A stretch of 64,000 nucleotides of DNA from Candidatus Electrothrix aarhusensis (GTDB taxonomy: Bacteria; Desulfobacterota; Desulfobulbia; Desulfobulbales; Desulfobulbaceae). Below the pieces are notes generated by a model, which worked only from the letters and a program-made list of their open reading frames with translations, was not told where the DNA came from and made no database searches. The stretch covers positions 62,001-126,000 of the forward strand of contig MTKO01000070.1 in assembly GCA_004028505.1 (NCBI GenBank), given 5' to 3'. The position numbers and the translations under genes were made by a program. This document shows, in pieces, positions 17,050 through 63,651 of this stretch (within the stretch, counting starts at the first letter, position 1; every line of letters begins with the position of its first letter).

Positions 17050-18492
17050 ATGGTTTTCAGCTCTATTACATTTCTCTTTTTTTTCCTTCCTGTTTTCCTG
17101 CTAGGTTACCTCTGTGTCGGTAAAAGAGGGCGTAACCTCTTTTTACTTTTAGCGAGTCTTTTCTTCTACCTTTGGGGCGAGCAGCTTTTTGTGCTTGTTA
17201 TGCTTGCCTCCATCGTGATGAATTATTTCTTCGGTCTTCTTTTGGATCAGGATGGAATACAGGGCAGCAGGGCAGCTAAGTTCCTTTTGGCAGCGGCTCT
17301 TGTCGCTAACCTTGGTATGCTTGGTTTCTTTAAGTATGCAAACTTTGCTGTGGACAATCTCAGTCTGCTGCTCAGTTGGCGCAATATGCCCCTTATGCAC
17401 TTGCAGAAGGTGCATCTTCCTATAGGTATATCTTTCTTTACCTTTCAGGCTATGTCATATCTTATTGATTTGTATCGTCAGGAATATAAGGCGCAAAAGA
17501 ATCCTCTCTATCTTGGACTGTATATCTCCCTTTTTCCACAACTCATTGCAGGTCCCATTGTTCGCTACAGTGATATTGCGGAGCATATAAAAAAACGTAC
17601 AGTCAGTCTGCATGATTTTGCCTGCGGAGTGGAGCGTTTTATTTTCGGTTTAGGAAAAAAGATACTGATAGCCAACCCTATGGGGCTTATGGCGGATCAT
17701 ATCTTTGGTATGCAGACGGAGCTGCTGTCAACTGGGACGGCATGGCTCGGCATTATCTGTTACACCTTGCAAATTTATTTTGATTTTTCCGGGTATTCGG
17801 ATATGGCCATCGGACTTGGGCGTATGTTCGGTTTTCATTTTTTGGAAAATTTCAACTATCCGTATATCAGTCGGTCTATTCGTGAATTCTGGCGGCGCTG
17901 GCATATTTCTTTATCGACCTGGTTCAGGGATTATCTCTATATTCCCTTAGGGGGGAATCGGCACGGCAATAAAAGGACGAATTTAAACCTCTTGATAGTC
18001 TTTCTACTTTGCGGCCTTTGGCATGGTGCGAGTTGGAATTTCATCCTTTGGGGCCTGATGTACGGCTTTTTTCTGGTTGCAGAACGAGGGAAATGGGGCC
18101 GGATAGTGACTGGTATGCATCCGATCGGGCAGCATTGTTATGCCCTGCTGGTGGTGATCAATGGTTGGGTGTTTTTTCGTCATGAGCAATTAGCAGAGGC
18201 AGGCTCTTATTTTTCCGTTATGTACGGCTTTTCAGGCGCGGAGAGGATGCATCCTCGCATCAACATAGACTGTAACGCGTTATTCATCTGTTCTCTTGTG
18301 GCCGGTATTCTGCTGAGTCTTCCTCTCTACCCCCAACTCCGGACATACTGGAGGGTTCGGGCAAAAGAAAATTACCTTGCCGTCGTATCCGTACAGGTTG
18401 CAAAACTGGTGCTTACTTCGACAATTTTATTGTTTGCAGCGGGCTCAATATCTGTCGGAGCTTATAATCCTTTTATCTATTTTAGATTTTAA
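17050..18492 (+). CDS. MBOAT-family O-acyltransferase (AlgI-like)
   Basis: 480 residues with about ten hydrophobic segments. The catalytic histidine lies in CGLWHGASWNFILWG. Other family landmarks are LPIGISFFTFQAMSYLIDLYR, PQLIAGPIVRYSDI, YFDFSGYSDMAIGLGRMFG and REFWRRWHISLSTWFRDYLYIPLGG. AlgI-type proteins move acetyl groups across the inner membrane to periplasmic acetyltransferases. The next gene encodes such a partner and starts 4 bp after this stop. The start at ATG 17050 follows the GT4 stop by 10 bp. Confidence 0.93.
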   Translation: MVFSSITFLFFFLPVFLLGYLCVGKRGRNLFLLLASLFFYLWGEQLFVLVMLASIVMNYFFGLLLDQDGIQGSRAAKFLLAAALVANLGMLGFFKYANFAVDNLSLLLSWRNMPLMHLQKVHLPIGISFFTFQAMSYLIDLYRQEYKAQKNPLYLGLYISLFPQLIAGPIVRYSDIAEHIKKRTVSLHDFACGVERFIFGLGKKILIANPMGLMADHIFGMQTELLSTGTAWLGIICYTLQIYFDFSGYSDMAIGLGRMFGFHFLENFNYPYISRSIREFWRRWHISLSTWFRDYLYIPLGGNRHGNKRTNLNLLIVFLLCGLWHGASWNFILWGLMYGFFLVAERGKWGRIVTGMHPIGQHCYALLVVINGWVFFRHEQLAEAGSYFSVMYGFSGAERMHPRINIDCNALFICSLVAGILLSLPLYPQLRTYWRVRAKENYLAVVSVQVAKLVLTSTILLFAAGSISVGAYNPFIYFRF

Positions 18493-34845: not shown

Positions 34846-36792
34846 ATGATGAAAAGCAATACTCGATTATTGCATAGTGTTTTGGCGGTGACAGCGGCTA
34901 CTCTCCTCCTTTGCTCATGCGTAGGTAAGAAATCGGAAGATGAGAGTAAGCAAACCGCCCGCCTTGCAGCTCCTGAAAAAAAACAACGTACAGTTATTGA
35001 GCCTTCTTTGTTGCCACAACGTTTTCAAAGAGCAGGATACATGATTAACGATGATGAGGTGAACGCTATGCTTGATAGCGACGCTTCTGACGATTTCCAG
35101 CTTAAGGTCGGCGCAGATATCACAACGCATGAGCCGATAACTCTGCGTGAGGCGATGAAGGCTCTCGTCAGAAATAAAAAAATGAGTCTCAGCTGGGCCA
35201 GTGATGTGAATCAGGATCTCCTTGTAGATATTGATCTCACTGCCAATGATAATTTTTATGAAGCGATTGATAATATATTGCGTCAGCTGGATTATTTTCA
35301 TGAGATGCAAGGATCAACCCTTATTATCAAATACAGGGAGACAAAACAATATCAGGTAGCGATGCCCTTTATAAAGCAAAATTATGAAACCCAGGTCGGC
35401 GGGGACATGTTTGGCAATAACGAGGCCATGCGGACCACCAAAGGTTCTATAAAAATAGATAGTGAAAAGAACGAGTTTGATATGTGGGAGAATATTAGCA
35501 AAAATCTTGATGTTCTCATATCAACATGGAGTGCAACAACAACAAGTCCTGAAGAGAGTGGCGGGGATATTGAAAAGGATCAGGATAAGGGGGACGAGGC
35601 AGAAGAGCCAGCTGCTCAAGTCTCACAAAGGGTGTCATCCACAGAGTCAAGCTACACCATTGATAAACCTGTTGGTTTGATAACCGTTCATGCTCCAAAA
35701 TCCTTGCAAAAGAGGATAAATGATTATCTGACAACGCTCGAACGGGAATTATATAAGCAGATTATTATCGAGGCAAAAATTATTGAAGTCCAGTTGCGGG
35801 ACGGCTCTTCACTCGGTATCAACTGGAATACCATTCTTCAAAGTTTAAATTTTACTGGTGGAGGGATAGGGGTAGCCCAATCATATAGTAAGGGGACGAG
35901 CGAGTCGAATCAGAACGGTACGAGCTTCTCTGATACTTCAACTCGTACAAGCGGTACTTCAAACGATAGCATCAGCACAAATTTGTCCAGCTCAAATGAT
36001 TCTACTAGCTCATTAGCAAGCTCATCAACAAGCAGTTCAGGGGAGGACAGTACGTCATCTGGTTCAGGCAGTACAGGCAGTACAGGGGGAACAACGGGTT
36101 TCAGTGAGCTTTCTGACATAAGTTCGACTTCAAATAGCATTGCTGATGTATTAACATCTGGTACAACAGCTGCGAGTACTCTAGCAACCCTCATTACCGG
36201 TGGTGCCTCTAACGCCGCTGCCGCCGGAATAAGTCTTGCTGCATTTTCTTTTGATAAATTTATTAATGCATTGAAGCAACAAGGGCAAACCTCAGTTCTC
36301 TCCAATCCGAAAATTAGTGTGATGAACGGCCAGCCAGCACTTATAACAGTTGGGCGTAATGTCACCTACATAGACAATATTTCAACAAAACTTGATAAAG
36401 ATACCAATGTCGAAACCTACTTAATCAAGACGGATAGAATTCTTTCCGGTGTTGGCTTGGCTCTTTCAGCAGTAGTCAAGAAAAATAATGATATCGTTAT
36501 GAATCTTGTGCCGGTTACATCGGAACTAGCTGAAGATATTGAGTACATGGAAATTGGTTCATCACGAATCGGGCTGCCTGTAGTTAACATCCGAGAAATG
36601 AGTACAACAGTGACTGTCAAGAATAATTCCATACTGGTGCTTGGCGGGCTTATTAGTGAGACTGAAATCAGTGACGGGGATTTTCTTTATGGAACAGAAA
36701 ATATGCCCTACCTGAAATATTTGTTTGGTTACGAGGAAAAGAAAAAAGTAAAGCGAGAGTTAATTATTCTGTTGAGGCCTCGTATTATTTAA
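34846..36792 (+). CDS. mshL: MshL-type outer-membrane secretin lipoprotein
   Basis: 648 residues. The lipobox LLLCSC is followed by an STN domain (ITTHEPITLREAMKALVRNKKMSLSW), a secretin N domain (VGLITVHAPKSLQKRINDYLTTLERELYKQIIIEAKIIEV) and the secretin C-terminal domain (SVLSNPKISVMNGQPALITVG ... LPVVNIREMSTTVTVKNNSILVLGGLI). Between residues about 346 and 425 there is a Ser/Thr/Gly-rich low-complexity insertion in the middle of the channel-forming part. It forms the pore through which pili leave. Closest in type to MshL rather than PilQ. Confidence 0.9.
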   Translation: MMKSNTRLLHSVLAVTAATLLLCSCVGKKSEDESKQTARLAAPEKKQRTVIEPSLLPQRFQRAGYMINDDEVNAMLDSDASDDFQLKVGADITTHEPITLREAMKALVRNKKMSLSWASDVNQDLLVDIDLTANDNFYEAIDNILRQLDYFHEMQGSTLIIKYRETKQYQVAMPFIKQNYETQVGGDMFGNNEAMRTTKGSIKIDSEKNEFDMWENISKNLDVLISTWSATTTSPEESGGDIEKDQDKGDEAEEPAAQVSQRVSSTESSYTIDKPVGLITVHAPKSLQKRINDYLTTLERELYKQIIIEAKIIEVQLRDGSSLGINWNTILQSLNFTGGGIGVAQSYSKGTSESNQNGTSFSDTSTRTSGTSNDSISTNLSSSNDSTSSLASSSTSSSGEDSTSSGSGSTGSTGGTTGFSELSDISSTSNSIADVLTSGTTAASTLATLITGGASNAAAAGISLAAFSFDKFINALKQQGQTSVLSNPKISVMNGQPALITVGRNVTYIDNISTKLDKDTNVETYLIKTDRILSGVGLALSAVVKKNNDIVMNLVPVTSELAEDIEYMEIGSSRIGLPVVNIREMSTTVTVKNNSILVLGGLISETEISDGDFLYGTENMPYLKYLFGYEEKKKVKRELIILLRPRII

Positions 36793-39581: not shown

Positions 39582-40352
39582 TCACACCATACAAAGTTCA
39601 AGTGTATGTTTTATTTCTTTCCAGTCCGGCATGACAGTGTCCAAGAGCCTGTAGAATTCGGAGCTATGGTGATGATATTGCAGATGACAGAGCTCATGCG
39701 TAACCACATAGTCAATGCACGCTTGAGGTGCTCTGATCAGGTCTGTATTGAGGGTAACTGTCCCCTTTCCTGAAAGACTGCCCCAGCGTTTGTGCATGCG
39801 CTTAATAGAGAGGCGGGGTGGCGTGGATGGTACGGCCAGCATGGGCTTATTCATTGTATCAATACCGAGGCGGCCCATTTTCTGCCAGCAGCGATCCATA
39901 CTCGCTGCAAATTGCAGCCGGGCCTTTTCCAAATACCATTGATGCAAAAGTCTTCTGGCCGTTTCCGAAGTCAGCTCGTCCCGTGAGGTGACATGAAAGA
40001 AGCCACGGGATAATTTGACCGAGTTTTCTGATCCTTTGACCAATTTTAAGCGGTACTGCTTGCCAAGATACAAATGGGTCTCCCCGTTCACGTAACATCG
40101 AGCAGGCGTCTTTGGGACGAACTGCTTGAAATAATTCAGCTGCTTGAGAATCCAGCGAGCCCTTTGTCGTATCTTCTTTTCGATGAGCGCGATGTCTGAT
40201 TGAACCGGTGCTTTGACAACCACGGTATTATCAGGATGCACAGCAATTTCCATTGTTTTTCTCTCACAATAGAGCAGGCTGAACGCAATGGTTTTCTGTC
40301 CATAAAGAACCGAGTGTCTGCTGTGCTGGTGTACTTGGTGTACTGCCTTCAT
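39582..40352 (-). CDS. YgjP/SprT-like zinc metallopeptidase (M48-type HExxH)
   Basis: 256 residues. The zinc-binding THELCHLQYHHHSSEFYRLL gives HELCH with a downstream Glu, and MHKRWGSLSGKGTVTLN is typical of the YgjP-like (DUF45) family. These genes are frequent companions of type I restriction loci, as here; its start overlaps the hsdR stop by 4 bp, so it belongs to that operon. The role, perhaps protease or accessory to restriction control, is not established. Confidence 0.82.
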   Translation of the reverse strand: MKAVHQVHQHSRHSVLYGQKTIAFSLLYCERKTMEIAVHPDNTVVVKAPVQSDIALIEKKIRQRARWILKQLNYFKQFVPKTPARCYVNGETHLYLGKQYRLKLVKGSENSVKLSRGFFHVTSRDELTSETARRLLHQWYLEKARLQFAASMDRCWQKMGRLGIDTMNKPMLAVPSTPPRLSIKRMHKRWGSLSGKGTVTLNTDLIRAPQACIDYVVTHELCHLQYHHHSSEFYRLLDTVMPDWKEIKHTLELCMV

Positions 40353-43300
40353 TGTCTCTCGCTCCGGTGCCTTGCCACTTGCAGCATCTTTTCAATGATG
40401 CCGTCCATCTGATCAAGGGACAGCTCAATGCCTCTTGCTGTTTTGAGCTCATCATAGAGATAATCGTCGATCTCGTTCATCGCTTGTTTCTGCGCATCCT
40501 CATCCTTCCAAAAATGCACTTTTTTGTGTTTTTCCAAAATGGTATGAAGGGCAATTGCTGTATCTGCGGTAGCGAACTCAAGGGCAGGAGCAGAGGCAGC
40601 CCCCTGGTGTTGTTCAAAGAAAGGTTTGAGCACCCCAAAATATGCCAGAGCATCCTCATTGCCAGCAAGCTGATCCGGAACATGATCATGGACCTTGCCA
40701 ACAACCTTGTCTCGGATCTCCAGGACGTTCTTCAGATAGTCCAGATCCGATATCCTCTTTGCTCTGAAATGCTCTATCGCCTGCTGGATCAGCTTTGAAA
40801 ACTTTTCGTAAAACGCAGGGTCTTCCTCCATTTTTTCGGTAATAACCTTTTTGGTTGCATGGGCAATGGTATCTGCCTTGGAGGCCGTAGTTTTTCCGGT
40901 GTGATATACCCCCTGTTCCTCTTTGACTTGATGAAACCTTGTCTCGTCAAAGATATTAACCGGTTCATTAAGTTGAAAAGCCTTGTCGGCTTGGATATGG
41001 ATGTCCAGCAGCTTCTTGATTTTAGGTTCGTAATCCCGGTAATCAATGGCCTCGGCATAGCGCAATTGAACAGACGCCTTGAGTGCCTGGAACTTGCGAA
41101 GATCTGTCTTGTATCCGACCAAGGTCTTTTCATCGGTTTCGCTCAGGAATTTTTCCGAAGAGAGCGCGATGGCGAGACTTTTTCCAAACTCTGCCAGACG
41201 GGCATAAAACTCTTCTCGCAGCTCGTCATCAGCAAGCAATACTTCATAGGCCTCTTCATCCGAGGAATGCTTCACCGTTTTAAACAGATCCCAAAGATCG
41301 GAATATCGGCTCGGCAGCTTTTCAATTTCGCTCTGAATGGATGCCAGGGTACCGACAAGATCGGATGCATCAAACCCTTCAAAGGCACTGTACATGGTCA
41401 GTGCTTTGTCCAACTCACCAAGGACGCTTGCATAATCGACAATAAAACCGAAATCCTTGCCCTCATGCAAACGGTTGACCCGAGCAATGGCCTGAAGCAG
41501 GGTATGCTCTCTCAACATCCGGCATAAGTAGAGAACCGCGTTTCGTGGGGCGTCGAATCCTGTCAGTAGTTTGTCCACAACAATAAGGATCTCAGGATCA
41601 TTGCCGTGCTTGAATTGGTCGATGAGCTGCTTGGTGTACTCTTCCTCGCGACCATAGCGCGTCATCATTTTTTGCCAGAATGCAACAACCTCATCCGTGG
41701 TCTCGTCGTCGGTTTCCTCATAGCCTTCACGCAGATCCGGTGGTGAGATAACAACCTCAGAGTTGACTATCCCGATTTCATCCAGATAGGCCTTGTACCT
41801 GAGCGCGGATACTTTGTTGGGGGCAACCAACTGGGCTTTGAATCCGGTTCCTTGCCAGGTGGCACGGAAATGCTCGCTGATATCAAAGGCTCGCATGTAG
41901 ATGACCTGATTCGCCTTATTCAGCATATCAGCGCGTGCGTACTTGCGCTTGAGGTCTGCCTGCTGCTCCTTGGTCAGCCCTTGGGTATGCCTGTCAAACC
42001 ACAGATCAACAGCTGCCTGATTTTGGGTCATCTCGACATGCCGACCCTCATACAAGAGCGGCACCACGGCACCGTCTTCCACGGCCTGGGTGATGGAATA
42101 ATGCGGCTCCACCAGCTCACCGAATTTCGTGAAATTGTTTTTTTCCTTTTTGAGCAGTGGGGTGCCGGTAAAACCGAGATAGCAGGCATGGGGAAACATC
42201 TGGCGCATCCGGGCCGAAAAGGAGCCAAATTGGGTGCGGTGACTCTCATCCACAAGGATGAAAATATCCGGTGAGGCATCCTGATATTTCTTGACCGCAT
42301 AGGCCTTGTCGAATTTATGAATAAGGGTTGTGATAATGCCTGACTGCTTTTCTGCAACCAGTTCCAGCAGGTTCCTCCCCGAGGTCGCTCGCTGCGCCTC
42401 AAGGCCGCAGGCGGCAAAGGTGTTGCCCAGCTGCTTATCCAGATCGTCACGATCTGTGACCAGGACAATGCGCGGATTGACAATTTCCGGATCAAGCACC
42501 AGATTACGTGCCAGCATCACCATAGTCAGGGATTTGCCCGAACCCTGGGTATGCCAGATCACCCCGCCTTTGCGGGTACGTTCAGGATCTCCTTCAGGTC
42601 GGTCAAAATGCTTGACGCGCTGCAAGGTCGACTTAATGACGAAATACTGCTGATAGCGGGCGATCTTTTTGCTGCCCCCATCAAACACCGTGAATTTCCA
42701 GGCCAGCTCCAACAGTCGCTTTGGGCGGCAAAGAGAGAAGAGGGCTTTATCCTGTTCGGTGACAAGCCTGGTGCCTGTTAAGGTATCAGGGGTAACATGA
42801 AAGGTGGCTGAGATTTTGCTGAGCACATCGTCGGGAAGGGGTTTATTGACGACCCGCGCAAGTCGTTCAAAGGCCGGTTCTCCGTTCTCCATCCTGGGTT
42901 CTTGCCAATTACCCCAAAATTTGGCAGCAGTACCTGTGGTTGCGTACATGGCCCTGTTTTTATTCAGGCCCAGGACCAGCTGGCTATAGATGAAAAGCTT
43001 GGGGATATGGTCATCGGTCTGATTTCTGATCGATTGCGAAACAGCCTGTTCGATTTCCACCTGTGGTGCCTTACATTCGATCACGCAAAAGGGAATACCG
43101 TTGACAAAGAGAACAAGGTCTGGCCGAATGGTCTCTGTGGAGCGGGAGCGTTCCACGCTGTATTCAACCGTTACATGAAAGGCATTGCGACCGGGATTAC
43201 GCCAGTCGATATAGTTTATATTAAAGCTTTTTGTGTTCCCCTCAATGGTCTGCTCCATTGCTGTTCCCAGGGTGATCAGGTCATAGATGGCCTCGTTTGT

Positions 43301-43573
43301 TTTCAGCAGGCCGTCGTACTTGATGTTTTTCAGCTTCTGGAGAGCTGACTGCACATTTTCCTCGCTGAAGAGGTATGCACCGCCCTTGTAATGGATCCGG
43401 TTGATCGCCTTGAGCTGGTTGCGCAGAATATTTTCCAGCAGGACATTGGAAAGGCGTCCCTGGCGTTCTGCCAAGGCTTGTTCGGGAGGGAGATATTCAT
43501 ACCCCATCGCCACCAGCAGCTGAACCGCCGGGATTTGGGAAAGCTGCTTTTCATTCGTCTGGAATGTGTCCAT
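40349..43573 (-). CDS. hsdR: Type I restriction enzyme R subunit (HsdR)
   Basis: 1074 residues. An N-terminal nuclease domain has RPDLVLFVNGIPFCVIECKAP (PD-x-ExK), then superfamily 2 helicase motifs: Walker A TQGSGKSLTMVMLARNL, DEAD-type LVDESHRTQFGSF, GFTGTPLLKKEKNN, and DKLLTGFDAPRNAVLYLCR. A long helical C-terminus binds the methylase core. It translocates and cleaves unmethylated DNA using ATP. Uninterrupted over 3.2 kb, unlike several neighbours. It starts 2 bp after the fic gene. Confidence 0.95.
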   Translation of the reverse strand: MDTFQTNEKQLSQIPAVQLLVAMGYEYLPPEQALAERQGRLSNVLLENILRNQLKAINRIHYKGGAYLFSEENVQSALQKLKNIKYDGLLKTNEAIYDLITLGTAMEQTIEGNTKSFNINYIDWRNPGRNAFHVTVEYSVERSRSTETIRPDLVLFVNGIPFCVIECKAPQVEIEQAVSQSIRNQTDDHIPKLFIYSQLVLGLNKNRAMYATTGTAAKFWGNWQEPRMENGEPAFERLARVVNKPLPDDVLSKISATFHVTPDTLTGTRLVTEQDKALFSLCRPKRLLELAWKFTVFDGGSKKIARYQQYFVIKSTLQRVKHFDRPEGDPERTRKGGVIWHTQGSGKSLTMVMLARNLVLDPEIVNPRIVLVTDRDDLDKQLGNTFAACGLEAQRATSGRNLLELVAEKQSGIITTLIHKFDKAYAVKKYQDASPDIFILVDESHRTQFGSFSARMRQMFPHACYLGFTGTPLLKKEKNNFTKFGELVEPHYSITQAVEDGAVVPLLYEGRHVEMTQNQAAVDLWFDRHTQGLTKEQQADLKRKYARADMLNKANQVIYMRAFDISEHFRATWQGTGFKAQLVAPNKVSALRYKAYLDEIGIVNSEVVISPPDLREGYEETDDETTDEVVAFWQKMMTRYGREEEYTKQLIDQFKHGNDPEILIVVDKLLTGFDAPRNAVLYLCRMLREHTLLQAIARVNRLHEGKDFGFIVDYASVLGELDKALTMYSAFEGFDASDLVGTLASIQSEIEKLPSRYSDLWDLFKTVKHSSDEEAYEVLLADDELREEFYARLAEFGKSLAIALSSEKFLSETDEKTLVGYKTDLRKFQALKASVQLRYAEAIDYRDYEPKIKKLLDIHIQADKAFQLNEPVNIFDETRFHQVKEEQGVYHTGKTTASKADTIAHATKKVITEKMEEDPAFYEKFSKLIQQAIEHFRAKRISDLDYLKNVLEIRDKVVGKVHDHVPDQLAGNEDALAYFGVLKPFFEQHQGAASAPALEFATADTAIALHTILEKHKKVHFWKDEDAQKQAMNEIDDYLYDELKTARGIELSLDQMDGIIEKMLQVARHRSERQ

Positions 43574-55149: not shown

Positions 55150-57128
55150 ATGCTGAATTTATGGAAAGAGCAAGAGGCTAAGGCCTGTAAAAACGAGCTT
55201 GAGCTGCGAGTATACTCGTCACGTTTATTGGGACGAGATCCTTCATTAGTTCTGCATGGCGGCGGTAATACCTCGGTAAAGATCACAGAGAAAAATGCCG
55301 TCGGAGAAGAGGAAGAGATCCTCTATATTAAAGGAAGCGGCTGGGATCTGGAGACCATTGAGACTGAGGGCTTTGCTCCGGTTCGTTTGCAGCCTATGAT
55401 TGCCTTGGCTGCGCTGGATGCCCTGACCGATCCGCAAATGGTCAATGAGTTAAAAACTCAGCTGACCCGCGCCAATGCTCCTGCCCCCTCTGTAGAAACT
55501 ATCCTGCACGCGGCCTTACCGTTTCGCTACGTAGATCATACCCATGCTGATGCGGTGGTTACCATCACCAATACAGCTGACGGACGCAGGCGCATTGAAG
55601 AGATATACGGTGATCAGGTAGTGGTGGTTCCTTATGTGATGCCGGGGTTTGATCTGGCCCGTGATGTTGCCCGTCTTTTTGCTGAACAGGCTGGTCCACA
55701 GACTATCGGTATGGTCTTGATGAATCATGGCGTTTTTTCTTTTGCTGATTCGGCCAGGGAATCCTATGAGCGGATGATTCACTTGGTGGATATGGCGGAG
55801 AGCTATCTTGCTGCTCATAATGCATGGGAGTTGGCGTTGTCAGCCAGAGCCATAATGAGATTAATAGGGTGAGCCGTCTTGAGATTGCCCAGTTGCGACA
55901 AGATGTGTCTGGGCAGGCGGGCAGGCCCATGATTCTCCATGTGACCGACAGTACACGAGGGTGGAGTTTTGTCCAGCGTGATGACGTGGGGAGTATTTCC
56001 CAACGCGGCCCGGTAACTCCGGATCATGTGATCCGTACCAAAGCTGTGCCCATGCTTGGCCGTGATGTGGAAGACTATGCGCAGGCGTACAAACAATATT
56101 TCGCTGCCCATGAGCCTATTGCTAAGGAGCAAAAAACCATGCTGGACCCGGCCCCACGGGTGATCCTGGATCAGGACCTTGGGTTGTGCTGTTTAGGTAA
56201 ATCAGCAAAGGATGCGGCAATTGTTCATGATATCTATGAGCATACAATGGAGTGCATTCTACGTGCAGAAAAGCTCGGCGGCTGGAAGGCCCTGCCTCCT
56301 GAAGAGCTGTTTGGTATGGAATATTGGGATTTGGAGCAGGCTAAATTAGCCAAGGGCGGTAAAGCGCTGCTTTTTAGTGGAGAAGTAGTTTTGATCACTG
56401 GAGCGGCATCTGGGATTGGCAAGGCCTGTGTTGAGTCTTTTCTGCAAAGAGGAGCCGCAGTGGTCGGTTTGGATATTGCTGAACGTATTGCAACAGTTTC
56501 GTCAAAGCCGGGATTTTTCGGGATTCAGTGCGATCTGACAGATGAGGACCAGGTACAGAAGGCCCTTGATCAGGCCGTCTCTCGTTTTGGTGGAGTGGAT
56601 ATGTTGGTGCTCAATGCAGGAATGTTTCCAGCGAGTGCGACGGTTGCTGAGTTATCCCTAGAAACGTGGCGCAAGGTGATGGCGGTGAACCTTGATGCCA
56701 ATCTTGTTTTGCTCCGGGAATGTTATCCTCTATTAAACTGTGCTCCGGGCAAGGGCCGAGTCGTAGTTATCGGTTCAAAGAATGTGCCAGCCCCCGGTCC
56801 GGGAGCCGGAGCGTACTCAGCTTCCAAAGCAGCCTTGACCCAGTTGATGCGAGTTGCTGCCTTGGAATGGGGCAAGGATGGAATCCGAATAAATGCCCTG
56901 CATCCCAATGCAGTTTTTGATACAGGAATTTGGACAGACGAGGTGCTGGAGGCCAGGGCAAAGCATTATGGTTTATCTGTACAGCAGTATAAAACAAATA
57001 ATTTGCTTGGGGTAGAGGTGTTGAGTCGGCAAGTTGCCGAATTAGCGTCTGAAATGTGCGGACCTTTGTTTGCCAGTACAACAGCTGCCCAATTGCCTGT
57101 TGATGGAGGTAATGATCGTGTAGTTTAA
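55150..57128 (+). CDS. Bifunctional class II aldolase / short-chain dehydrogenase (RhaD-type fusion), one frameshift
   Basis: The N-terminal aldolase has LVLHGGGNTSVK, YVDHTHADAVV (zinc His) and VLMNHGVFSF. The frame changes near 55850 and continues VSRLEIAQLRQDVSG into the SDR half: LITGAASGIGKACVE, LVLNAGMFP and the catalytic AYSASKAAL. The repaired length (about 659 residues) fits the TIGR02632-like family described as rhamnulose-1-phosphate aldolase/lactaldehyde dehydrogenase. No rhamnose genes are nearby, so the substrate here is open. Confidence 0.82.
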
Positions 57129-57580
57129 AAAAAACTCAAAGGTATAAAAAACTGTATCCATAAGAGACAACGATTGGGAATAGGAATTATTCTTAGTATC
57201 TTGCTTTGTTTATAATGTGCGGCCTAAAACTGTCATTTTATCCTGTTGGGCAGGCAGAATTGATTGAAATATTTTTTTTGGTATGTAACAAAGAAAAATA
57301 TCATCTATTAGTCAGAAGGGATACCTGGAATGGTAGTGAAGAAGATATCGTTTTTTACTTATTGTACAGTTTTTTGTATTGCTATTTTTTTTAGGGGATG
57401 GTATTCCTCCAGTATGCAAAAGTTTCAGTAGCTGCAGACAGTCGGCAGCAAAAAATGGCCGCGCTCCTGTTGGGATGTTACTGAAGTATATCGTGTTGGT
57501 TAAAGAATAACTTGTTATCTTGATACTTTTTTGCAAATCTGTATGGCTTGTGGACGAGCGAGAGGTAAAGGAGAGGTGCG
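57129..57580. other. Intergenic region before the repeat proteins
   Basis: 452 AT-rich bases without a credible gene. A weak promoter-like pair TTGATA (57520-57525) and TATGGC (57542-57547), 16-bp spacer, lies just upstream of an AAAGGAG ribosome-binding site for the next gene. Confidence 0.4.
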
Positions 57581-59062
57581 ATGAAACAGATGAAAAATGG
57601 CGTGGCCATCGGGGCTGTCGCTCTTTTTGCCTTAACTGGCTGTGTGGCGGATGTTGCTTATGTTCCGCAGAATTCCGGATCACAACCCTGTACTCAGGGG
57701 CCGTGTGATGAAGGGCAGGTAAAACAGCAGGTAGCAGCAAAAGATTTTAGTCAGGCGTCTGCACCCAATGTAGCGGCTCCAGATTATACTGCATCCGATG
57801 TAGCGGCTCCGGCTTATAGTGCTCCTGTTGCATCGGCTCCGGCTTATGCTCAGCAAGGTCAAAATCAGGATCAAAATCAAGGTCTTGGTGAAGGGTTGCC
57901 GCCAAATGTTCAACCCGGTGAGTGTTACTCCCGCTGTCTTGCTCCGGCTGTTTTCGAGGATGTAGAGGAGCAGATTGAAGTTGCTCCAGCTATGGAGCGG
58001 ATCGACGTTATTCCTGCCGAGTACGAATGGGTGGAAGAGCAGGTCGTTGCCAAAGAAGCATCTGAGAAAATTAAAGTTATTCCTGCGAAATACGATTGGC
58101 AGGATGAGCAGGTTGTTGTTAAGGAAGAGTCTGAAAAAGTTAAGGTTATTCCTGCACGATACGAATGGCGGAATGAGCAGGAAGTTGTTCAAGAGGCTTC
58201 CGAAGAGTTCAAGGCTATTCCTGCGGTTTACGCATGGCGTGAAGGGCAGGTTATGGTTTCACCCGAGATCACCACCGTCACCATAACCAATCCCGGTTAT
58301 GAAGAGGTGAAAGAGCAGGTTTTGGTCAAGGCACCTTCTGCAAAATGGATCAAAAAAGCGACACACTGCTCTCCAGAAGATGTCAAGATGGGTTTGACCG
58401 ACTGTGATACTTTGTGTTATGTTGCAGTTCCTGCCATGTACAAAACGGTTATCAAGAAGGTGCCCAATGATTCGGGTGGTGGTCCAGGTGGTGCAGGACG
58501 CGAGGAAGTTATTATTCCGGCAGAGTACAAGCCTGTGAGAACAAAGGTTGTGGTTGAGCCTGCAAGGACTGAGACCGTAACTGTGCCTGCGCAATATCGC
58601 ACAGTCAGGAAGCAGGTTTTGGTTGAGCCTGCTCGGACAGAGACGGTTATTATCCCTGCTGAGTATAGAACTGTACGGAAAAAAGTTATAGCTGAACCAG
58701 CTAGAACTGAGACTGTCCCGGTTCCTGCTGAGTACAAGAATGTTCGGGTGAAAAAGCTCGTTAAAGAGGCTGAGGAAAAGGTCGTTCAGGCTCCTGCCGA
58801 ATACAAGACTATTGTTAAGAAAGTTAAAGTCTCTGACAGTAAAATCGTATGGCGTCTGGCTCTTTGTGAGGATGAAGCTGTTGATTCAAAGATCAGAGAA
58901 ATGCAAAGTGCTCTGAGTCGGGAAGGTTTCTACACCGGAGAGATTAATGGCGTATTGAACCAAGGGACCAACGACGCGATTAGAGCGTATCAGGTTGAAC
59001 GAGGGTTGCCACAAGGTGGCGGAATGACCCTTGAAACACTTGAGTCGTTGGGGATTTATTAA
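57581..59062 (+). CDS. Repeat lipoprotein with Y-x-W and PAEYKTVRKK repeats and C-terminal peptidoglycan-binding domain
   Basis: 493 residues. The lipobox ALTGC is followed by a Pro/Ala/Gln-rich linker (30-110) and a cysteine-containing motif PGECYSRCLAP. Next come four degenerate 28-residue repeats of type VIPAxYEWxxEQVVxKEAS (about 140-225). A middle segment with HCSPEDVKMGLTDCDTLCYV precedes four or five 23-residue repeats VxPAEYRTVRKKVxxEPARTE (about 290-420). The last 60 residues are a PG_binding_1 domain (MQSALSREGFYTGEINGVLNQGTNDAIRAYQ). It is probably outer-membrane-anchored and bound to peptidoglycan. The function of the repeats is unknown. Confidence 0.8.
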   Translation: MKQMKNGVAIGAVALFALTGCVADVAYVPQNSGSQPCTQGPCDEGQVKQQVAAKDFSQASAPNVAAPDYTASDVAAPAYSAPVASAPAYAQQGQNQDQNQGLGEGLPPNVQPGECYSRCLAPAVFEDVEEQIEVAPAMERIDVIPAEYEWVEEQVVAKEASEKIKVIPAKYDWQDEQVVVKEESEKVKVIPARYEWRNEQEVVQEASEEFKAIPAVYAWREGQVMVSPEITTVTITNPGYEEVKEQVLVKAPSAKWIKKATHCSPEDVKMGLTDCDTLCYVAVPAMYKTVIKKVPNDSGGGPGGAGREEVIIPAEYKPVRTKVVVEPARTETVTVPAQYRTVRKQVLVEPARTETVIIPAEYRTVRKKVIAEPARTETVPVPAEYKNVRVKKLVKEAEEKVVQAPAEYKTIVKKVKVSDSKIVWRLALCEDEAVDSKIREMQSALSREGFYTGEINGVLNQGTNDAIRAYQVERGLPQGGGMTLETLESLGIY

Positions 59063-59076
59063 CGAGTAGGGACAGA

Positions 59077-59112
59077 ACAAAGGCGCTTTCCGCGCTTTTG
59101 TTCTTTTTTAAA
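59077..59112 (+). terminator. Terminator between the two repeat-protein genes
   Basis: AACAAAGGCGC and GCGCTTTTGTT pair around a short loop and run into six T residues, so the second gene probably relies on its own promoter or on read-through. Confidence 0.8.
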
Positions 59113-59148
59113 AACCACCTGAAGTAAATATTTAAAAAGGAAAAAGAA

Positions 59149-60426
59149 ATGTTGAAGAAAAGAAATTTTATGATGGCTGCTGCGTTCCTGTTCGCGGTAT
59201 CTTCACCTGCTGTAGCGCAGCAGTATGGTCAGGTTGATCCTTCTCAATACATTAATGAAGGCTTTCCGACTAATGTTCAGCCTGGTGAGTGTTACTCCCG
59301 CTGTCTTGCTCCGGCCGTTTACGAGGACGTGGAGGAAGAAATCGAGATAGCACCTGCTATGCAGCAAACAGAAATTATCCCGGCTGTGTACGAATGGGTT
59401 GATGAGCAGGTTGTTGCCAAAGAAGCTTCTGAGCAAATCGAGACACTTCCCGCGAAATTTGAGTGGACAGAAGAAGAGGTCGTTGTCAAAGAAGCATCAG
59501 AGGAAATCAAAGTTGTTCCAGCACGGTATGAGTGGCGGGACGAGCAGGTCATTGTCAAAGATGCTACAGAGGAGTTGAGGTCTGTTCCAGCCAAGTATGA
59601 CTGGATTGATGAGCAGATCATGATTTCTCCTGAGGTTATTACTGTGACCATAACCAATCCCGGTTATGAAGAGGTGAAAGAGCAGGTTTTGGTCAAGGCA
59701 CCTTCTGCTAAGTGGATTAAAAAGGCAACTCATTGCTCTCCGCAAGATATTCAAATGGGTTTGACCGACTGTGATACCTTGTGTTATGTTGCAGTTCCGG
59801 CTATGTATAAAACCGTTATTAAGAAAATACCGAAAGACTGTTACGGTCAAATGGACGGATGTCGTCAGGAAGTCATGATCCCTGCTGAATACAAAACTGT
59901 TCGGAAAAAAGTTGTTGTTGAGCCTGCAAGGACTGAAACCGTGTCTGTACCAGCAGAGTATAGAACTGTGCGGAAGCAGGTCATGACGGCTCCGGCTATG
60001 ACTGATGTAATAACGACTCCTCCTGTGACTCAGAAAATCAGGAAAAAAGTAATGGTTGCTCCGGCCCAGACACGATCAATCCCAGTACCTCCTGAATACA
60101 GGAGTGTCAGGGTGAAGAAACTGGTAAAACCGGCTGAAGAGAATACTATTACAGTTCCAGCTGAGTACAAAACCATTGTTAAGAAAGTTAAGGTTAGCGA
60201 TAGTAAAATTGTTTGGAAACCTGCACTTTGTAAGGATGAGCTTGTTGACTCAACTATTCGTCAGGTACAATCAGCCTTAAGCCAGATGGGCTTTTATAGC
60301 GGTTTGATCGACGGACAATTGAATCAGTCAACCAGTGAAGCTATCAGAGCTTTCCAGGTTGAGAACGGTCTTGCTCAGGGCGGCGGACTGACAGATGAGA
60401 CTGTAGAAGCTTTAGGGATTTACTAG
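59149..60426 (+). CDS. Paralogous secreted repeat protein with C-terminal peptidoglycan-binding domain
   Basis: 425 residues, about half identical to the preceding protein but with a cleavable signal peptide (ending SSPAVAQQ) instead of a lipobox and without the Pro/Ala linker. It keeps PGECYSRCLAPAV, the Y-x-W repeats (about 75-160), an almost identical central block (ITNPGYEEVKEQVLVKAPSA then KWIKKATHCSP), the PAEYKTVRKK repeats (one unit diverged to TTPPVTQKIRKKV) and PG_binding_1. The pair arose by duplication and now differs in anchoring: one lipidated, one soluble periplasmic or exported. GGAAAAAG precedes the ATG. Confidence 0.8.
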   Translation: MLKKRNFMMAAAFLFAVSSPAVAQQYGQVDPSQYINEGFPTNVQPGECYSRCLAPAVYEDVEEEIEIAPAMQQTEIIPAVYEWVDEQVVAKEASEQIETLPAKFEWTEEEVVVKEASEEIKVVPARYEWRDEQVIVKDATEELRSVPAKYDWIDEQIMISPEVITVTITNPGYEEVKEQVLVKAPSAKWIKKATHCSPQDIQMGLTDCDTLCYVAVPAMYKTVIKKIPKDCYGQMDGCRQEVMIPAEYKTVRKKVVVEPARTETVSVPAEYRTVRKQVMTAPAMTDVITTPPVTQKIRKKVMVAPAQTRSIPVPPEYRSVRVKKLVKPAEENTITVPAEYKTIVKKVKVSDSKIVWKPALCKDELVDSTIRQVQSALSQMGFYSGLIDGQLNQSTSEAIRAFQVENGLAQGGGLTDETVEALGIY

Positions 60427-60738: not shown

Positions 60739-62888
60739 TTAAGTGAGCTCGTTACTCGGAACGCCGGGCAACGTAATCGTGAAAACCACACCGGTTCTCC
60801 CATCGGAAAGGTTTTGCACACTTACTCGCCCATCATGATGATCCAACACGGTACGAACAATATATAATCCAAGGCCCAGATGAGGTAGCTTATCTTTGAC
60901 TGCTCGATTGGAGATCATTGAGTGAAAGATTTGTTGCTGCATATCCGGCTCAATAATCGGCCCTTGATTGATAACGAGCAGGGATATATTGTCGTTGTCA
61001 TGTTGCTCAAGCTGGAGTTCAATCGCTGTGCCAGGAGTATGGAAAGATACAGCATTTTCGACAAGCTTCTCTAATGCTTGGCGTAATCGAACTGGATCAC
61101 CGTTTACCAAGATCTCATGTTCAGGTGCTTGATAGAGGATGTCGACCTTGTTAAAGGCAGGTCGCCAACCGTGCTCAAGCCATACTGAGACAGCTCTGCC
61201 GAGATCCAGCAATTCCATACTGTCCAACAACAGGGCATTCTTTAAGGTCGTGGCCTCCCGAATTGAAGTGAGAAGCTCTTCCATCCTCTGTACATCGCGT
61301 TCGACCCACTGAATATATTCCATAATACGATCCGAGGGATTCGTATCAAGCTGTTCCTGGCGAAGATTTTTTACTGAGGCGGCAATGCCAGCCAAGGGCG
61401 TTCGCATTTCGTGTTCAAGATTATCAGCCATTTGCTCCCGGTGTTCAATCTGCTGTTGGAGTTGGCTGAGCATGGAATCCAGGGTGCGACCTAAATCAGC
61501 GATTTCATCACTTGCGGAATCCTTGTTGATGGTATTAAGGATTCTTCCATCAGGAGTGATGGCCGAAGCCGCCTGATTGCGCAGGCGACGGATTCGGGCG
61601 GAGATGCGGAAGGCAAAAAAGAGCAGAATGCAGCCGCCAAAGAGAAAGGCGATAACAGAGAGAGAAATGGTCTCTTCAATTAGGCGGTTACTGAGAGAAA
61701 GAATGGAGTTTGTGGTTTGCTCGACAACCACGGCACCGATGACCTGCTCCTGTTCGTATAACGGGGTGATGGCTGCCATGACCTCCACCTGACCGTCTTC
61801 CATTAAATAGCTGGTAACAGAATGCTTGCCAGCAAGTCCTTCGCGAATTCCTTGGAGGTCCAGCTCAGTCGCTGGGAGGCCTGATCTTTAAATTCCGTTA
61901 AAAAGGGGTTGATAAAAAAACGATAGAGGGGCCGCATAAGCTCATTTATACGAAGAGAAAACTTGTCAGCCTGTTTTTTGGGTATTTCTGAGGTGCGCAG
62001 GCTGCCTACCTGAGCTCTCACTCTTTGATTGCGATCGACGATCCGAATACGCGCATACGGGCGATCAAGAGATTTCAGTATTTCTTCAATGGGAGTTGAG
62101 GTCGTTAGAAGCAGGCCCGGAGCCTTGTCTTCCTTTAAATTCGAGGTGCCGATTAATGCTTTGATATCTCTGGATGCAACATCGTCAACATCGGCTATTG
62201 TGAAGGCAAGTTTATTTCCGAGTAACTCCAGGTGAATACGTATCTCCAGAATGTAGCCGCTGTCGGTCTGATTCCAGACTCCTTGGATTCGTTGCTCGCT
62301 GACAGGAAATTTGATCGGAACATCGGGCATGAGAAAGCCATTGACCCATCCTGGCTCGTAGGCTGTTATTAGATACTTTCTTTGGCCTTTATCATCACCT
62401 ATAACAATTTGCAAATGATCGGAACGATCAAGGCGTAACGAGTTTTTGCTTCGATAAATGACATGATCATCCTGCACGTCAAAGAGCGCGTACAAAAATT
62501 TATCCTGCTTACCGGCAAGATGACGGAAATTAAGGGACTGGAGAACATAGTTGCCTTCGGAACTGATCAAATGCTCACGAGCAAATTCTTCTGCTTCAGC
62601 GAGTTCTGGCCGCCAATCGTCGAGCTTTCCGTCCAACCTGATAGTGTTGCTGAGCTGAAAGAGATAAAGATCGCGGTCTTGGTTCAGACCATGAAATTGT
62701 TCTCTATCAAAGAGATCATTCCGGTTGGTTAATGCAGCAGAAACCGCTTGAGCTGTAAGGCTGAGGGTCTCTTGCTGGCTGGTGATCAGGCTGTTCTTTA
62801 AGGTATTGTTGAGGCGCATCCCCAATAAAGGGAAAAGGAGGAGCAGGAGAGAAAGGAGGGCGAGTTTTAGGCGCAGAGAGAAACGCAT
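60739..62888 (-). CDS. pdsS: Sensor histidine kinase of the proteobacterial dedicated sortase system type, one frameshift
   Basis: From 62888: transmembrane helix (KLALLSLLLLLFPLLG) and a large periplasmic domain with LDGKLDDWRPELAEAEEFA and LYALFDVQDDHVIYRSKN. The frame changes near 61868, then a second transmembrane segment (LSVIAFLFGGCILLFFAF), HAMP-like linker, H-box LEHEMRTPLAGI, N-box VENAVSFHTPG and G-box LGLGLYIVRTVL. The repaired protein has about 716 residues. The large DGxLDDW-type sensor domain and the adjacent regulator fit the TIGR03785 description. The ligand is unknown. It lies 70 bp downstream of its regulator. Confidence 0.78.
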
Positions 62889-62958: not shown

Positions 62959-63651
62959 TTATGGCTGCCAGCGGTATCCCATTCCGTATTCAGAACGAAT
63001 AGCCTTGAAATCGGAATCAACATCTTGGAATTTATCTCTGATCCTTCGGATATGTGCAGCAATCGCATTATTCGTGACAATCACGCTGGCCGCCTCCATT
63101 AACTGCTCGTGATTTTTAACATGCCCTGGCCGTCTGGCGAGGCAAACCAGTATCCAGAATTCTGTCAGGGTCAGGCTGATCGGGTGTCCCTTCCAATATA
63201 CTTCCTTCCGATCTTCGTCAATCTGTAAGTCTTTATGCTGGATAATTTTGTTTTCCGTTGTATTGCTGCGTAAGGCCTCAACAGTACGGAATAGAGCAGA
63301 TATTCTGGCAGGCAGAAAGTCTAGGGTTGTTGTGTCCTTGGTCAGGTAGTCCCAAGCACCTAAGCGCAGCCCGGAAACTCTATCCAGATCTGAATTGCGT
63401 GCTGTAAGGAAAATAATTGGAATGACGGGGGATAAAGAGCGAAGGTGTTGGCAGAGGTCAAAGCCACCAGCCATTTCCTCTCCGAGCATGACGTCCAGGA
63501 TGGCAAGGTCGGGTAGGGCGCGAGCAAAAGCAGACATGGCTTCAGACTTGCTGCTGTAGGTAGCTACATCGTAGCCTTCGCGCTGGAGGGCTTGCGCATA
63601 ATTAGCCTGCAGCCTGCAATCATCTTCAACAAGGGCGATACGGTAGGTCAT
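62959..63651 (-). CDS. pdsR: Response regulator of the proteobacterial dedicated sortase system type
   Basis: 230 residues. The receiver has ALVEDDCRLQANYAQALQR, phosphoacceptor LAILDVMLGEEMAGGFDLC, IIFLTARNSD and DYLTKD. The OmpR-type winged helix has LTLTEFWILVCLARRPGHVK, AIAAHIRRIRDKFQ and the ending EYGMGYRW. The combination GGFDLC...RRPGHVK...GMGYRW matches the TIGR03787 family, known to pair with the TIGR03785 kinase and a variant sortase in mostly marine proteobacteria. The sortase and its LPxTG target are not in the window; they may lie to the right. Confidence 0.8.
   Translation of the reverse strand: MTYRIALVEDDCRLQANYAQALQREGYDVATYSSKSEAMSAFARALPDLAILDVMLGEEMAGGFDLCQHLRSLSPVIPIIFLTARNSDLDRVSGLRLGAWDYLTKDTTTLDFLPARISALFRTVEALRSNTTENKIIQHKDLQIDEDRKEVYWKGHPISLTLTEFWILVCLARRPGHVKNHEQLMEAASVIVTNNAIAAHIRRIRDKFQDVDSDFKAIRSEYGMGYRWQP

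Follow-up and report, generated by a model that had tools for sequence, protein, structure and literature searches.

Cysteine-bearing repeat proteins with peptidoglycan-binding ends in Electrothrix and their possible place in the cable-bacterium envelope

The published work considered here (PMC11976967, PMC13047784, PMC11247825) identifies neither the protein of the conductive fibres of cable bacteria nor the proteins that hold these fibres on the cell wall, and motif searches have yielded no nickel-protein candidate for the fibre (Digel et al., PMC11976967). A search by known nickel or haem motifs (PMC11976967) would miss an unannotated repeat family. The locus described here raises the question of whether such a family, represented by two adjacent genes that we call P1 and P2, has a part in that envelope and, if so, which one. 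A first-pass annotation had suggested that both proteins build a periplasmic fibre or surface scaffold, and had noted a two-component pair of the sortase type lying tail-to-tail with them.

Two exported paralogues with a repeated core

Both genes lie near the end of the window, that is, the whole stretch of 64,000 nucleotides that was analysed, and their parts are the following:

57581..59062, + strand: P1, a lipoprotein of 493 aa in which 23-aa repeats precede a C-terminal peptidoglycan-binding domain (open reading frame, PG_binding_1, dN/dS)
57581..57643, + strand: P1 lipoprotein signal, lipobox LTGC, lipidated Cys21, Val at +2 (sequence reading; same lipobox in orthologues with a complete N-terminus)
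57923..58417, + strand: P1 acidic half, residues 115-279, with CYSRC, repeats PAxYxWxxEQVVVKEASE, and HCSP followed by DCDTLC (net charge -16; cysteine columns)
58418..58867, + strand: P1 basic half, residues 280-429, repeats PAEYxTVRKKVxVEPARTETV, last motif ALC (net charge +11)
58886..59050, + strand: P1 PG_binding_1 domain (Pfam)
59149..60426, + strand: P2, 425 aa, paralogous to P1, with a signal peptide of the ordinary type (open reading frame, PG_binding_1, dN/dS)
59149..59217, + strand: P2 signal peptide, predicted cleavage after AVA (AVA/Q; sequence reading)
59290..59784, + strand: P2 acidic half, residues 48-212, with CYSRC, HCSP and DCDTLC (net charge -22)
59785..60231, + strand: P2 basic half, residues 213-361, including the linker cysteine pair C231/C238 (net charge +17)
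60253..60414, + strand: P2 PG_binding_1 domain, helical in the AlphaFold2 model with pLDDT of about 83 (Pfam, AlphaFold2)

The two products had been presented as tandem paralogues, one a lipoprotein and one with a plain signal peptide, and the comparison bears this out: they are 69% identical over residues 16-425, and both C-terminal domains reach the gathering score of PG_binding_1 (PF01471; 35.1 bits in P1 and 43.2 bits in P2, with a cut-off of 23). In both, the export signal is followed by PGECYSRC, an acidic block, HCSPxDxxMGLTDCDTLC, a basic block, ALC and the PG_binding_1 domain. Such domains attach proteins to peptidoglycan, and a lipoprotein that lacks Asp at position +2 is usually sorted to the outer membrane (the enterobacterial rule).

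Each protein carries roughly twelve 23-residue repeats. Identity at a lag of 23 residues reaches 0.369 in P1 and 0.296 in P2, far above the best values obtained at any lag in 500 shuffles (0.165 and 0.161), and the period is consequently not a product of chance. The acidic and basic repeats, which had been described as alternating, are instead arranged in two blocks, with net charges in the N- and C-terminal halves of -16/+11 in P1 and -22/+17 in P2. The repeats matched no family in Pfam, NCBIfam or the PDB, and a repeat profile run against the PDB also gave no match.

AlphaFold2 was run twice, on full-length P2 and on its repeat core, with an input alignment of six sequences. It returned an all-beta chain rather than a globular enzyme, in which each repeat contributes one strand of 12 and one of 7 residues, with turns at both PA positions and a helical peptidoglycan-binding end, and the two runs agreed on the strand pattern. 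Confidence was low (mean pLDDT 59.6 for full P2 and 59.2 for the core, pTM 0.26). A Foldseek search with the model found confident matches to peptidoglycan-binding domains only, and no solved fold for the repeats. On the strength of the models, the repeats are likely to have an elongated, beta-rich shape, either a solenoid or a meander.

Both genes are under purifying selection, with dN/dS of 0.16-0.19 for P1 (against orthologues) and 0.13-0.14 for P2, within an overall range of 0.07-0.19. Their codon adaptation lies in the 94th-99th percentile, similar to that of rpoB and rpoC; as the bias of the organism is modest and the background was made of mechanically chosen open reading frames, this rank no more than hints that the genes are highly expressed.

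Several known systems resemble P1 and P2 in part. They share their C-terminal domain with the PG_binding_1 envelope proteins but, unlike these, have no hydrolase or transpeptidase domain, the remainder being made of cysteine-bearing 23-residue repeats that belong to no curated family. The His-Xaa-Ser repeat protein HxsA (TIGR03979) shows a weak similarity restricted to the peptidoglycan-binding part (50.2 and 55.3 bits), far under its 121.65-bit cut-off, and the His-Xaa-Ser repeats themselves are absent. Tethers of the Lpp and Pal type, like P1, pair a lipoprotein signal with a peptidoglycan-binding end, whereas P1 and P2 have a long predicted beta-repeat region in place of a coiled coil or an OmpA-like domain, and Pfam revealed no relation to them. 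There is also an uncurated family with three cysteines, in other Desulfobulbales (G041, G042, G044, G080, G082, G083, G112) and in G384, in which GxCY, repeats, MCLV, repeats, LCxT and the peptidoglycan-binding domain follow in the same order; copies of the P1/P2 type have six to eight cysteines instead of three, and longer repeat halves.

Other assignments were considered and rejected. A catalytic function was discarded, as nothing outside the peptidoglycan-binding end matched Pfam, NCBIfam or the PDB at cut-off. Haem binding was likewise discarded, the motif CxxCH being absent from P1 and P2. A phage origin was also set aside: the PHROGs matches are endolysin families that align mainly with the peptidoglycan-binding end, and no viral contig encodes the repeats. 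Among plasmids, the only relatives were peptidoglycan-binding ends of the HxsA type.

Cysteines, repeat number and lineage

The host genome is almost certainly that of an electricity-conducting cable bacterium, a point that escaped the first-pass annotation, as it belongs to the same genus as Ca. Electrothrix gigas. When named genome contigs were scanned with P2, only two loci were recovered (Ca. Electrothrix gigas AU1_5 and Desulfobulbaceae S24.Bin023), both from the genus of the window. The cable bacteria are monophyletic and comprise two genera, Electrothrix and Electronema (PMC11247825), and a RpoB tree (ignoring the row for G006, which was read in the wrong frame) places a genus that we call g12 as the sister of Electrothrix (100/100), with g9, which holds a simple form of the protein, as the next branch. 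Given both observations, g12 is most likely Electronema.

Within the family (74 genomes), the tandem pair is found in seven of the eight Electrothrix genomes and a single gene in all five g12 genomes. The form with six cysteines occurs in 12 of these 13 genomes, the sole exception being an assembly that is 69% complete. Across the order (258 genomes), the repeats were detected in 20 genomes, and in a sample of the phylum (395 genomes) matches were limited to the window's genome and one other, with either a single-protein or a profile query. The simple form, with three cysteines and fewer repeats, is sporadic in other Desulfobulbales. As these relatives live in genera outside the cable clade, the ancestral job of the family was not conduction. 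The simple form may be common in Gammaproteobacteria as well.

The first-pass annotation had drawn attention to conserved cysteines in ECYSRC, HCSP and DCDTLC. These motifs are present and invariant across all Electrothrix copies, and the alignment separates two layers in them. Three core cysteines (in GxCY, MCLV and LCxT) are found in every protein compared, namely 19/19 copies of the cable clade and 7/7 outgroup proteins. Three further cysteines (the second of CYSRC, that of HCSP/PC and the first of DCxTLC) are present in all 19 copies of Electrothrix and g12 and in none of the outgroup copies, a small sample of seven (G041, G042 and G044, from the next-closest genus; G080, G082 and G083; G112). 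The repeat halves follow the same division: they measure 116 and 100 residues in the outgroup, 143 and 123 in g12, and 166 and 151 in Electrothrix, having grown in steps of 23 residues plus short inserts. In the protein tree, outgroup and cable copies separate from each other, and the duplication that produced P1 and P2 falls inside Electrothrix. Judged by these alignments, the extra cysteines are specific to the cable lineage, if g12 belongs to it as we infer, and the gain of cysteines and repeats coincides with the origin of cable bacteria.

Other characteristics are less constant. The cysteines are not wholly alike in both paralogues, since the linker pair C231/C238 is found in P2 and is missing from P1 of the window. 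Both linker cysteines are present in 12 of the 14 Electrothrix copies and neither in the other two, a single one being found in none; this joint retention or loss is what disulfide partners would be expected to show. The acidic/basic polarity is absent in g12 and, for this reason, it cannot be essential to the structure that both genera share.

There is, in addition, a cysteine-rich third paralogue, with a GECWSQC start and a peptidoglycan-binding end (L014 918-2144, on G000:C77 of the window's genome; L055 287-1627; L056 8203-9744; L057 7581-8828; genomes G000, G061, G057 and G058). In one member, the stretch PCSPDDIAKGMKDCSSVC resembles HCSPEDIKMGLTDCDTLC. It differs from P1 and P2 in having 24-27 cysteines and in the loss of most of the regular repeats. 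We rejected it as a universal cable gene, as it occurs in only 4 of the 13 genomes of the cable clade.

A possible role in the envelope

The peptidoglycan-binding domain, the export signals, the repeats, the all-beta AlphaFold2 chain, the presence in the cable clade, the cysteines, the growth of the repeat halves, the codon adaptation and the published chemistry of the sheath (PMC8238962) lead us to read P1 and P2, tentatively and with a little less than even confidence, as peptidoglycan-anchored structural rods of the cable-bacterium envelope, with a role in its sheath or ridges. In such a model, both proteins would be abundant and exported and would bind peptidoglycan through their C-terminal domain, while the dozen or so repeats would make up an extended beta rod, acidic in one half and basic in the other. 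The lipid anchor of P1 would most likely sit in the outer membrane, so that P1 would tether this membrane to the peptidoglycan, and P2, a soluble rod, would be fixed to the peptidoglycan. Cable bacteria would have added repeats and three cysteines to an older, shorter rod family, the cysteines most likely forming disulfides that stiffen or cross-link the rods, and these rods would probably serve in the construction or spacing of the ridge and of the basal sheath under the conductive fibres.

According to Boschker et al. (PMC8238962), a peptidoglycan-like layer underlies the conductive fibres, the protein of the sheath is not alpha-helical, and the sheath may owe its chemical resistance to disulfides. 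In the same study, the amide signal was read as mainly disordered rather than beta; together with the relatives outside the cable clade, the low confidence of AlphaFold2, the lack of a solved fold and the absence of polarity in g12, this counts against our reading. The scaffold that had been suggested earlier is still a fair reading as far as a secreted, peptidoglycan-anchored and probably beta-rich protein is concerned, but its functional tie to the sortase-type two-component pair has been weakened (see below).

A plainer explanation, which we consider rather unlikely though to be taken seriously, is that P1 and P2 are generic envelope tethers, either between outer membrane and peptidoglycan or as periplasmic spacers, that provide stability in every carrier and that in cable bacteria have merely become longer and richer in disulfides, with no special relation to the fibres. 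The same architecture, signal included, in unrelated genera of Desulfobulbales and in one other family of Desulfobacterota speaks for it, as does the lack of linkage between the gene and known conduction genes. However, such a tether would require neither the fixation of three cysteines and further repeats precisely on the cable lineage nor the near-top codon adaptation of P1 and P2.

A stronger form of the structural-rod reading would make P1, P2 and the single protein of the sister genus core structural proteins of the fibre sheath, the cable-specific cysteines having turned an ordinary rod into a scaffold for the conductive fibres or into their sulphur-rich matrix; this we hold to be doubtful. 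Less probable still, P1 and P2 could be the fibre protein itself, the rods polymerising head to tail, through acidic-basic contacts and through disulfides, into strands of roughly 3 nm, with CxxxC clusters that hold sulphur-ligated nickel or a cofactor. The smallest strands are 3.1 nm wide and their protein has not yet been named (PMC11976967), and the cable-restricted pattern CxxxC, C, CxxxC, C, the repeats, the charge polarity and the high codon adaptation would fit. Nevertheless, the proteins have no more than 6-8 cysteines in about 420 residues, the model published for the cofactor is nickel bis(dithiolene) rather than plain cysteine ligation (PMC12093952), the polarity is missing in the sister genus, and the family exists outside cable bacteria.

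The structural rods proposed here amount to a testable shortlist of two proteins in Electrothrix and one in the sister genus, all secreted, predicted to be wall-anchored and probably well expressed.

Neighbouring genes and upstream elements

The neighbouring genes are arranged as follows:

55150..57128, + strand: aldolase/short-chain dehydrogenase (SDR) gene, broken by a frameshift in this assembly and conserved as the neighbour on the upstream side in both genera (NF006196 halves; synteny)
60739..62888, - strand: pds-type histidine kinase, two open reading frames here and a single one of 711-719 aa in most Electrothrix relatives (neighbour in Electrothrix only)
62959..63651, - strand: pds-type response regulator (TIGR03787, 309.4 bits, below the cut-off of 335.7)

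The two-component pair that the first-pass annotation placed tail-to-tail with P1 and P2 was found, the kinase being split by a frameshift in this assembly into halves that match positions 1-340 and 366-703 of TIGR03785. Kinase and regulator are pds-like by similarity, with scores under the curated cut-offs. The open reading frames of the halves overlap at 61803-61875 in the kinase and at 55824-55872 in the aldolase/SDR gene, both of which are single frames in related genomes; two frameshifts within 7 kb suggest either assembly errors or decay. In every complete Electrothrix locus examined, the order is aldolase/SDR, P1, P2 and then the convergent kinase and regulator, whereas in g12 the single gene keeps its aldolase/SDR neighbour and the kinase is located elsewhere. 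A secreted, putative CAP/SCP-domain protein (L007 9918-10514) lies beside the response regulator and is kept in several Electrothrix genomes.

Adjacency to the kinase is therefore limited to Electrothrix, and co-occurrence is confined to the family. Although 14 of the 16 repeat-positive genomes inside the family have the kinase, these are mostly of the cable clade; among the 184 genomes outside the family, four have the repeats, 33 the kinase and none both. As repeats and kinase never occur together there, the pair is to be regarded as a neighbour and at most a candidate partner. For this reason, it is quite improbable that P1 and P2 are cell-wall cofactors or sensors whose repeats display the peptidoglycan-binding domain to recruit or sense wall synthesis under control of the pds system: the domain and the adjoining genes of all complete Electrothrix loci would suit that role, but there is no catalytic domain and the kinase is not adjacent in the sister genus.

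Six of the eight Electrothrix genomes encode the sortase TIGR03784, which in five cases lies no more than about 10 kb from the pair; it had no match in the window's genome, in E. gigas or in g12. P1 and P2 were also rejected as sortase substrates, as their C-termini (...TLESLGIY and ...TVEALGIY) are the ends of the peptidoglycan-binding domains and contain no LPXTG. The pds kinase is retained in G000, G061 and the g12 genomes, which have no dedicated sortase match, and the two-component pair may consequently have other targets. The literature searched on the pds system, mostly open-access, contained no relevant match.

Two further elements flank the genes:

57364..57382, + strand: 19-bp element GTACAGTTTTTTGTATTGC, about 200 bp upstream of P1, identical in 7/7 Electrothrix genomes
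59074..59104, + strand: terminator-like hairpin between P1 and P2, a 13-bp stem followed by a T run (consensus scan only)

A slightly relaxed pattern, GTRCARWTTTTTGTATTGY, is also found upstream of the g12 gene. There are exactly two perfect copies of GTACAGTTTTTTGTATTGC in each of the six Electrothrix genomes searched, and none of the reversed pattern used as a control. The second copy (L196 6848) lies ~70-130 bp upstream of the gene for a 243-aa secreted protein with an outer-membrane-barrel-like end, which is followed by a FG-GAP protein, and this second site is present in g9 too. It is likely that both sites share a regulator. The hairpin, for its part, could possibly lower read-through into P2. 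A conserved RNA structure in the P1 leader was discarded, as the RNAalifold covariation term was unfavourable (+0.65) and double changes affected 2 of 70 pairs; against Rfam, the leader gave a single match, below threshold.

Elsewhere in the window, there are genes for a type I restriction subunit HsdR (40349-43573), a MshL-like secretin (34846-36792) and a DltB-like acyltransferase (17050-18492).
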